DNA of 64,000 nucleotides, taken from NCBI GenBank assembly GCA_026386805.1, contig JAPLMX010000236.1, positions 1 to 64,000 of the forward strand, given 5' to 3'. Both the position numbers and the translations under genes were made by a program. The notes under the pieces are model-generated. The model was not told the origin of the DNA and made no database searches. It saw only the letters and a program-made list of their open reading frames with translations. Below are positions 2,766-40,287 of the stretch, in pieces (the first letter of the stretch is position 1; every line of letters begins with the position of its first letter). This stretch comes from Phycisphaerae bacterium (GTDB lineage: Bacteria > Planctomycetota > Phycisphaerae > Sedimentisphaerales > Anaerobacaceae).

Positions 2766-3668
2766 ATGTCTCTCTTGGTCACAGGTTCTATCGGTATTGA
2801 CACGGTAACGACGCCCTGCGAGGTCAGCAAGAACTGCATAGGCGGTTCTTCCGTGTATTTCAGCATGGCCGCCAGCTTCTTTGGCCCTGTGAGGTTTGTG
2901 GGCGTGGTTGGGGCGGATTGCCCCTTTGATTTGGCTCAGGTGTTCAACGGCAGACCAGTAGACCTAGCCGGTTTGGAGGTCCGGCGGCATAGTAAGACCT
3001 TCCGCTGGTGGGCGACCTACAAAGATGACATGGATCACCGCACAGACCGGGTGAAGTTGGGCGTTTTGGCCGAAGCCCCGCCCAAGGTCCCCGAGGCATT
3101 CAAGGATAGCCAGCTCGTGTTCCTGGCTAACAAGACCCCTGCCCTGCAGATGCAGCTACTAGACGAGATCGAGAAGCCATTGTTCGTGGCTGCCGACACC
3201 ATGCCTCGCTGGATTAAGGGCAACCGCAACGAGTTGAGCGAGCTCTTGAAGAGAATTGACTGCCTGATCATCAATGTGGAGGAAGCCAGACTGCTGGTGA
3301 AGCAATCCAACCTCGTGCGGGCCGCCGAGCAAATCCTGGAGTTGGGCCCCTCAATCGTCATCGTAAAAAAGGGGGAGTCAGGCTCGTTGATGTGCCTGAA
3401 AGACGGAAACAAATTCGTCCTGCCCGCGTATATGACAACTGACGTCAAAGACCCAACCGGGGCGGGCGACAGTTTCGCCGGCGGGTTCATGGGCTATCTC
3501 GCTCAAGCCCGCAAGACCGATTTCGACACGCTCAAGACCGCCGTCGCCTACGGCACGGTCGTCGCCTCGTTCACCATCGCGGATTTCTCCCTCAGCGGCC
3601 TGACGAGCGTCACGCGCGGAGATATTGACATCCGATTGGGAATGCTGCGGAAGTTTACACACTTCTGA
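2766..3668 (+). CDS. PfkB/ribokinase-family sugar kinase
   Basis: This 300-residue protein has the ribokinase-type layout: an N-terminal strand MSLLVTGSIGID, a substrate-side GGSS motif near residue 30, and the C-terminal anion-hole/catalytic signature DPTGAGDSFAGGF that carries the catalytic Asp. It should phosphorylate a sugar or nucleoside with ATP in the cytoplasm; the substrate cannot be read from sequence. The ATG at 2766 is chosen because GGAGG lies about 10 bases upstream and the family pattern begins there. An upstream in-frame extension from 2532 looks non-coding. It is followed by thpR (23-bp gap) and recA on the same strand. A second family member lies at 51952-52935. Confidence 0.85.
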   Translation: MSLLVTGSIGIDTVTTPCEVSKNCIGGSSVYFSMAASFFGPVRFVGVVGADCPFDLAQVFNGRPVDLAGLEVRRHSKTFRWWATYKDDMDHRTDRVKLGVLAEAPPKVPEAFKDSQLVFLANKTPALQMQLLDEIEKPLFVAADTMPRWIKGNRNELSELLKRIDCLIINVEEARLLVKQSNLVRAAEQILELGPSIVIVKKGESGSLMCLKDGNKFVLPAYMTTDVKDPTGAGDSFAGGFMGYLAQARKTDFDTLKTAVAYGTVVASFTIADFSLSGLTSVTRGDIDIRLGMLRKFTHF

Positions 3669-38688: not shown

Positions 38689-38820
38689 GTCATCCTGAGT
38701 GTCAGCGAAGGATCTGGGCCGAGCACGGGAACGGGCGTTCGTCTCAGTCGTTGGCCAGATGCTTGGGTTCCCAAACGCGAGAGAGCGCATTTGGAGGCCC
38801 TTCACTTTGTTCAGCGTGAC
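38689..38820. repeat. Long palindromic dispersed repeat (GTCATCCTGA family)
   Basis: It begins GTCATCCTGAGT and ends GTTCAGCGTGAC, with inner GGATCTGG and CCAGATGC. At about 130 bp it is the longest copy in the window. It lies in the 349-bp gap upstream of the beta-barrel lipoprotein gene. Confidence 0.75.
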
Positions 38821-38970
38821 AAATGCGGATACGCCCATTCCAGAAGCAGTGGCCCCCATGCTGAACGGAACGCGATTTTCCCATTGCAGGGGGCTTGCCT
38901 CCAGTATAGCCTATCGGCAGGTCGTTTATCCCGGCCGGATTGGCGTGCTCTTGGATGAAAGGAATCGCAA

Positions 38971-39507
38971 ATGATGGGGCGAAGATTCATTGGCCTGGTG
39001 TTGCTGGCCGCGGTGTGCACCGTGCTGGGCGGCTGTAGCCATGGCACGGGGATCGAGCTTGGTGCCTTTGGGTCTTCCTTGAAGTCCAACGACTTGGGCC
39101 AGGGCTACGGCGGCGGCGCGAAACTGGAGCTCAACCCGATCGATTGGTGCAGCGTTGATGGGCGGGCCAGCTACCTCCGGTTCGCCGACACCCAGGTCAA
39201 TATGGTTCCGCTAGAAGCGGCGGGGTTGTTGAACTTCCCCATGGCCGGGGAGCGTATTGTTCCCTACGTCGGCGCGGGCGCGGGATACTATCTGTTCGAC
39301 GCGGACGACGCCGATCTTCAAAACAAGGTGGGGTTCTTCCCCCTGGCGGGTCTGGAGATCAGGCTGTGGCGGGTCTCACTCTTGGCGGAGGCTCGCTGGC
39401 TGTTTTTGCAGACCGACGTCGAGAGCGCCAAGGGCGAGTTGAAGAACCTCCGCGAGGCCGACGTCGACGGCCTGGGGATCAACGTGGGCGTGCTGTTTCG
39501 ATTCTGA
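38971..39507 (+). CDS. Outer-membrane beta-barrel lipoprotein, putative
   Basis: This 178-residue protein has a lipoprotein signal (GLVLLAAVCTVLGGC, lipobox cysteine at residue 22). The mature part has alternating strands rich in Gly and aromatic residues and ends in VGVLFRF, a typical terminal strand of outer-membrane barrels. Fold resembles small OmpA/OmpW-like barrels. The start has AAAGGAATC upstream. A complex inverted-repeat element lies just after the stop. A similar barrel protein is encoded at 44624-45292. Confidence 0.6.
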   Translation: MMGRRFIGLVLLAAVCTVLGGCSHGTGIELGAFGSSLKSNDLGQGYGGGAKLELNPIDWCSVDGRASYLRFADTQVNMVPLEAAGLLNFPMAGERIVPYVGAGAGYYLFDADDADLQNKVGFFPLAGLEIRLWRVSLLAEARWLFLQTDVESAKGELKNLREADVDGLGINVGVLFRF

Positions 39508-39515
39508 TGACAACT

Positions 39516-39690
39516 GGAGTTCGGCACAATGGACATTGGGCCTACTTTGGGAAAGAAGAATCTGCTTCACGATTTTTCTTTCCCAAACAGTGTCCCATCG
39601 ACCGACCGTAACCTAAGACAATTCTTCAAGGAAATCGTGAAACAGATTTCCTTGAAGAATATAGGCCCAATGTCCATTTTGCCAAACTCC
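39516..39690. repeat. 175-bp cloverleaf-like inverted repeat element
   Basis: Outer arms 39516-39544 and 39662-39690 are inverse over 29 positions with 2 mismatches (both contain TGGACATTGGGCCTA or its inverse). Inside are two hairpins. Hairpin 1 pairs 39546-39557 with 39576-39587 (12 bp, extendable). Hairpin 2 pairs 39621-39636 with 39645-39660 (16 bp, perfect). The loops TGCTTCAC and GTGAAACA are complementary at 7 of 8 positions. The two halves look like inverted copies of one unit whose stems differ yet remain paired. Confidence 0.85.
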
Positions 39691-39709
39691 ACATGATAAC
39701 CAGGACCCT

Positions 39710-40024
39710 ATGAATCCAAAGGCGGCCGAGGCATGGAATTTCGCACTGGCGAAGATGGAGTCTGCCCGGCAGTACATCGAGCAGAACCAGGACGAGCTGG
39801 CCAAGACGGAGATCGCCAAGGCGGTCTACGTTGGGGCCGGGGCCCTGTACTACCTGCTCGGCCAAGGCCCGGAGGAGCAAACCGCCCACCAGGCGGCCCA
39901 GAGCTTCATCACGGAGATGACGGCGATGGACGGCTCCGCCGCGGAAGCCTGCCTGGCCGCCCGCAAAATCCTGGCCTATATCGCCGATGCCTCACCGGCC
40001 GAAGACAAGCTCCCCCCTCCGTAA
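39710..40024 (+). CDS. Small helical protein of unknown function
   Basis: This 104-residue protein is mostly helical (EAWNFALAKMESARQYIEQNQDELAKTEI and QTAHQAAQSFITEMT) and ends in a proline run. No motif was recognised. It starts 19 bp after the inverted-repeat element, with only a weak ribosome-binding site. Coding bias supports a real gene, but moderately. Confidence 0.5.
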   Translation: MNPKAAEAWNFALAKMESARQYIEQNQDELAKTEIAKAVYVGAGALYYLLGQGPEEQTAHQAAQSFITEMTAMDGSAAEACLAARKILAYIADASPAEDKLPPP

Positions 40025-40215: not shown

Positions 40216-40287
40216 GTAGGGTGCATACCACGCACCATCTTCCTTGGCCGCATACAACGATCAAACGGTGCGTGGTACGTACCCTAC
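40216..40287. repeat. Palindromic GTAGGG element overlapping a stop codon
   Basis: GTAGGGTGCATACCACGCACC on the left is mirrored by GGTGCGTGGTACGTACCCTAC on the right, nearly perfect over about 21 bp. The right end supplies the TAG stop of the minus-strand FAD oxidoreductase. Confidence 0.8.

Follow-up and report, generated by a model that had tools for sequence, protein, structure and literature searches.

The 179-bp segment at positions 39514 to 39692 of the window, i.e. of the 64,000-nucleotide stretch of Phycisphaerae DNA analysed here, is a complete copy of what is most probably (with a probability of roughly 0.86) a non-coding MITE that is transposed by a putative transposase supplied in trans. 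Four features by which such elements are recognised are present: the element is short (below about 600 bp) and lacks a transposase gene, it is bounded by terminal inverted repeats and by target-site duplications, and it occurs in many dispersed copies. Since multiple copies, exact ends, target duplications and deletion derivatives together mark a transposed element, the small transposable element named among the options of the original prediction is the one that we adopt. The family is apparently undescribed in the open-access literature. Elements of this kind are already known (cf. ERIC, Correia, and RUP); what is unusual is the conservation of the fold across genera, a covariation of the DNA type, and a missing partner. 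Its members occur in several genera of uncultured planctomycetes that are Phycisphaerales-like, and their alignment offers dozens of natural variants of a single cloverleaf.

Architecture and setting of the window copy

The ends of the element (CTGGAG...CTCCAC) were fixed by the alignment of its copies; no strand is assigned to it, and plus orientation in the alignment is the one with the purine-rich hairpin first. The cloverleaf-like inverted repeat that had been predicted is borne out by the window copy. A left terminal inverted repeat of 31 nt (39514-39544, plus strand), with the family core GGASTTYTGCAAAATNGA...AGGCCTA, and a right one of 31 nt (39662-39692, minus strand) form the outer arms, which pair at 28 of 30 positions (39515-39544 with 39662-39691). 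They enclose hairpin 1 (39546-39587, plus strand), composed of a 17-bp stem with one mismatch (39546-39562 and 39571-39587) and the loop TGCTTCAC (39563-39570), and hairpin 2 (39621-39660, plus strand), composed of a completely paired 16-bp stem (39621-39636 and 39645-39660) and the loop GTGAAACA (39637-39644). The spacer between the hairpins (39588-39620, plus strand) is poorly conserved and varies in length in other genera. Folded as single-stranded DNA, the element reaches −57.6 kcal/mol (z = −13); 200 dinucleotide shuffles are at −18.0 ± 3.0 kcal/mol, and not one of them folds equally well. No open reading frame of at least 60 amino acids lies wholly within the element, and the forms known range from 56 to 275 bp.

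The two loops of the window copy are complementary at seven of eight positions, just as predicted. Within the genome of the window, loop-loop complementarity amounts to 5-8 matched positions, in G061/G062 to 4 of 7-8, and in G026 (genus g19) to 3-5 of 10-12; outside G026 it lies above the letter-shuffled expectation (mean 5.69 vs. 4.52). The inner parts of both hairpins carry the motif AGGAAA(AA)TC-loop-GATTT(TT)CCT in inverted orientation, the innermost part of hairpin 1 being AATC-loop-GATT in most genera and AATT...AATT in G026. Related elements of 107 bp in G003 carry a single AGGAAA-TC-loop-GATTT-CCT unit, and in relatives of 246-275 bp from the same genome, copies of this unit are split and inverted. 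It is thus plausible, as proposed, that one unit gave rise to both halves in inverted orientation: the interior would consist of two hairpins resembling inverted copies of one subterminal module, and the complementarity of the loops is most readily seen as a vestige of this inverted duplication, not as a contact maintained across the family. The interiors of the 246-275-bp relatives (L062-L080) are mosaics whose middle contains a segment that could pair to its left or to its right, so that one hairpin would preclude the other; they look like the product of template-switch remodelling.

The window copy is located in a 202-bp gap between two genes on the same strand. The upstream gene (38971-39507, plus strand) codes for an outer-membrane beta-barrel protein (PF13505) and its stop codon lies 6 bp before the element; the downstream open reading frame of 104 amino acids (39710-40024, plus strand), for which no Pfam match was obtained, starts 17 bp after it. 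Both are mentioned as context only. The element is flanked by the direct repeats ATGACAA (39507-39513, plus strand), which overlaps the final base of the upstream stop codon, and ATGATAA (39693-39699, plus strand), identical at six of seven positions. Two other repeats were observed nearby. The region 38690-38850 belongs to a different high-copy repeat, for which 165 first-look candidates and 40 scored matches were obtained in the same genome; most of the matches cover the first 81 bases, with 75-87% identity. The region reads through an open reading frame with the motif VTLNKVKGL. Between two genes at 40216-40287 there is an inverted repeat, GTAGGGTGCATACCACGCACC and GGTGCGTGGTACGTACCCTAC, with 21-nt arms 30 nt apart.

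Copies, target-site duplications and distribution

A BLAST search against the 5.55-Mb draft genome (279 contigs) from which the window derives yielded about 23 full-length copies (the identical place plus about 22 further ones) and about 15 partial ones. The full-length copies are mostly 77-90% identical over their whole length, with one outlier at about 71%. Aligned together with their flanks, the copies show sharp, common ends (CTGG...CCAG, with single-base variants). The arms define two subfamilies, one with GACATTGGG and one with GAGATTAGG; in each, the opposite arm is altered to match. Internal-deletion derivatives of 76 bp (L034, L035), 56-58 bp (G005), and about 38 bp (G004) retain both ends. 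Retroposition with one-sided truncation was rejected because left ends and right ends are each found alone. L020 and L041 contain an identical nested hairpin of the form GGGCCCCCAAACGCGATCCTATCGCGTTTGGGAACCC at the same place (within 3000-3217 and just before 3001, respectively), so that this composite was probably multiplied or else inherited from a common parent. A hairpin similar to it lies in L085 downstream of the left end at 1581; the nested hairpin probably represents a separate REP-like family.

Target-site duplications were assessed by comparing the 5′ and 3′ flanks of 101 candidate copies, with re-paired flanks as control. Matching exceeds the control at lengths of 6 bp (z = 10.9) and of 7 bp (z = 7.6), not at all at 3-5 bp, and more weakly at 8-11 bp, where the excess is attributed mainly to G026. 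Perfect duplications were found seven times at 6 bp and ten times at 7 bp, 0.2 being expected by re-pairing in each case. The direct repeats thus measure 6-7 bp in most genera and about 10-13 bp in G026, where exact runs of at least 9 bp (e.g., TTGATATTTTTGA and TTATTTTCTGTAA) flank 11 of 19 copies, with 0.7 expected by re-pairing. Outside G026, duplications are often imperfect, with best exact runs of mostly 3-8 bp, which we ascribe to age. The difference in length among genera counts against the MITE reading, as a single transposase would not normally produce it. The G026 copies (L242-L260) are about 201 bp long, and their 4.5-Mb genome contains about 100 core ends.

When a member of the second subfamily served as query, 17 of the 61 genomes searched gave matches, including each of the nine of the genus (that of the window and eight more); the 24 from other families of the order gave none. 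The terminal-repeat pattern occurs in 19 of 89 genomes of the family, a reversed control pattern being almost without matches, and a shorter core occurs about 100 times in G026. The ends of the family read CTGGASTTYTGCAAAATGGA or, for the g19 type, RGATTCTGCAAAATTGAAG. The two-hairpin architecture is present in seven genera (the window's own, G015, G017, G021, G026, G035/G087, and G061/G062), and the GTDB-named records with the element are MAGs of uncultured Phycisphaerales or Planctomycetota. The plasmid and phage collections searched gave no match, and a search of IMG/VR with the terminal-repeat pattern returned two lone ends only, which are uninformative.

Basis of the conserved pairing

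Covariation was analysed in an alignment of 64 two-hairpin copies from the seven genera. A single copy, absence of covariation among relatives, or loss of pairing in other copies had been named as observations that would speak against a selected structure; what was found besides the numerous copies is that 92.3% of the cells pair (about 94% in the terminal arms) and that 39 of the 62 pairs of the arms and both stems have changed on both sides. The covariation score is 0.281 and exceeds that of every control, compared with 0.134 for shuffles, which leave the relatedness among copies in place, and with at most 0.116 for slid controls, a lead that is in part built in because the structure was derived from one of the aligned sequences. 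Some unpaired cells of helix 3 reflect a one-column misalignment of G026.

Selection on a transcribed strand favors G-U pairs, whereas pairing at the DNA level does not. The departures from pairing in the stems comprise 140 G-U and 141 A-C cells, and the changes inferred by parsimony comprise 54 to G-U, 47 to A-C, and 100 double changes. As G-U and A-C departures are equally frequent, the pairing is maintained either in the DNA itself or through template switching. The idea of a structure under selection is supported to the extent that seven genera have retained the cloverleaf, with changes that are compensated, but an overall excess of G-U over A-C is lacking. According to the MITE reading, pairing and arm identity would be carried along by amplification through a few competent master copies, and imperfect palindromes may also be homogenised by template switching during replication. 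A copy located between co-directional genes, like that of the window, may on this reading be transcribed as an mRNA hairpin.

Whether mutation by itself accounts for the arm identity and the compensated changes, through quasipalindrome correction and template switching and with no selection on the structure, is a question compatible with the MITE reading, and we regard a positive answer as possible, though not as the favored one. Template switching between the arms of a palindrome leads to simultaneous changes and has been proposed as a mechanism for hairpins in general (PMC8794818). The excess of double over one-sided changes fits this process, and we infer that it acted on these palindromes. 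The stems, on the other hand, are far more conserved across genera than the spacer, and they retain both their length and their position, so that some constraint exists. One source of constraint would be transposition itself, if it required the folded cloverleaf: the putative transposase would recognise hairpins extruded from single strands or from supercoiled DNA, structure-keeping changes would be selected through mobility across genera, and the width of the target cut would have changed between genera. We consider this extension of the MITE reading doubtful.

Slightly less probable still, and in our view unlikely, is a conserved structured RNA (an mRNA hairpin, an RNase III site, or a small RNA) that was multiplied and in which selection acts on the folded transcript. 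Such an RNA would agree with the strong fold, with covariation over seven genera, and with the location of the copies, 13 of the 25 that were scored being placed cleanly between genes of the same direction, frequently 2-20 bp from a gene end. Hairpin 1 by itself also leans towards G-U (23 vs. 11 A-C), but this lean is not significant and is absent from the other two helices. For the structure as a whole, G-U is not tolerated above A-C; this comparison gives no overall sign of selection for an mRNA hairpin, and the structured RNA included in the original prediction is therefore not supported. Moreover, no family was matched at gathering score in Rfam scans, a clean position between two divergent genes was scored for six of the 25 copies, and exact ends with target duplications are marks of DNA insertion. 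Mobile DNA can thus show covariation of textbook appearance while nothing points to a functional RNA, a trap for RNA-discovery pipelines; for the homogenisation of palindromes by template switching, the family represents a test set.

Mobilisation and relation to known elements

In the proposed mechanism of MITE transposition, a transposase acting in trans would recognise the terminal inverted repeats of about 31 bp and insert the element into AT-rich, mostly intergenic sites. The target would be duplicated over 6-7 bp or, in genus g19, over about 10-13 bp. The missing transposase is a target for further search. Target duplications measure 10-13 bp in IS231/IS4, 5-6 bp in IS1634, and 6-7 bp in ISDol1. 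The element resembles IS4-superfamily insertion sequences and ISDol1 in this length class and, in its own genus, in the terminal C, but the loci of IS1634 (NF033559), ISNCY (NF033593), and DDE_Tnp_1 (PF01609) inspected in these genomes have other terminal repeats. MITEs typically, though not by strict definition, share their ends with an autonomous element able to mobilise them. No autonomous element with the ends of the family was seen at the sampled loci of four transposase models or at solo ends in these incomplete draft genomes, a provisional absence that counts against the MITE reading. Two candidates were set aside: an insertion sequence of G017 (L268) with a partly similar end, CTCGACTTTTGCCATTTGGA, whose similarity (four mismatches in 18) was judged coincidental, and a 2.1-kb pair of ends on contig 141 of G026, which encloses only ordinary genes (by reading, accA-like and ferritin-like) and no transposase.

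The fourth model, Y1_Tnp (PF01797), bears on the idea of a REPIN-like repeat whose single-stranded hairpins would be acted on by a Y1 (HUH) transposase, either a RAYT or one of the IS200/IS605 type. The element shares with REPINs an inverted pair of hairpins, which are conserved here, and many extragenic copies, and each of the ten genomes tested has Y1 transposases. Y1 transposition, however, is not known to make target duplications, which are clear in this family, and none of 30 Y1 loci inspected in the ten genomes has element ends nearby, so that we regard such a mode of transfer as very improbable. A site-specific recombination site (cassette or attC-like), likewise part of the original prediction, is not needed to explain the observations and has almost nothing to recommend it: folded single-strand recombination sites do resemble imperfect palindromes with unpaired loops, but the copies are single and dispersed with target duplications, not in cassette arrays, and no recombinase was seen beside them in an unsystematic look.

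The closest parallels are found among bacterial MITEs. In ERIC, Correia, and RUP elements, the duplicated target is TA, whereas the duplications observed here comprise 6-7 or about 10-13 bp, and the sequences also differ. Bacterial MITEs with internal secondary structure have been reviewed (PMC2229807); ERIC/IRU, Correia/NEMIS, YPAL, and RUP are, like the present family, short, non-coding and non-autonomous repeats that are scattered between genes, are bounded by terminal inverted repeats, and have an interior that can fold. The family differs from all of these in having two hairpins of one module in opposite orientation, in being kept across several genera, and in having no known partner insertion sequence.

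The solo ends in G000, G003, G004, and G026 represent truncations, deletion forms, or contig edges. Two truncated copies in G026 (L301 and L319) continue straight into genes; their purine-rich arm (AAGAAAGGGAG and AAGAAAGGAG) lies just upstream of the likely start codon and has apparently been recruited as a ribosome-binding site.
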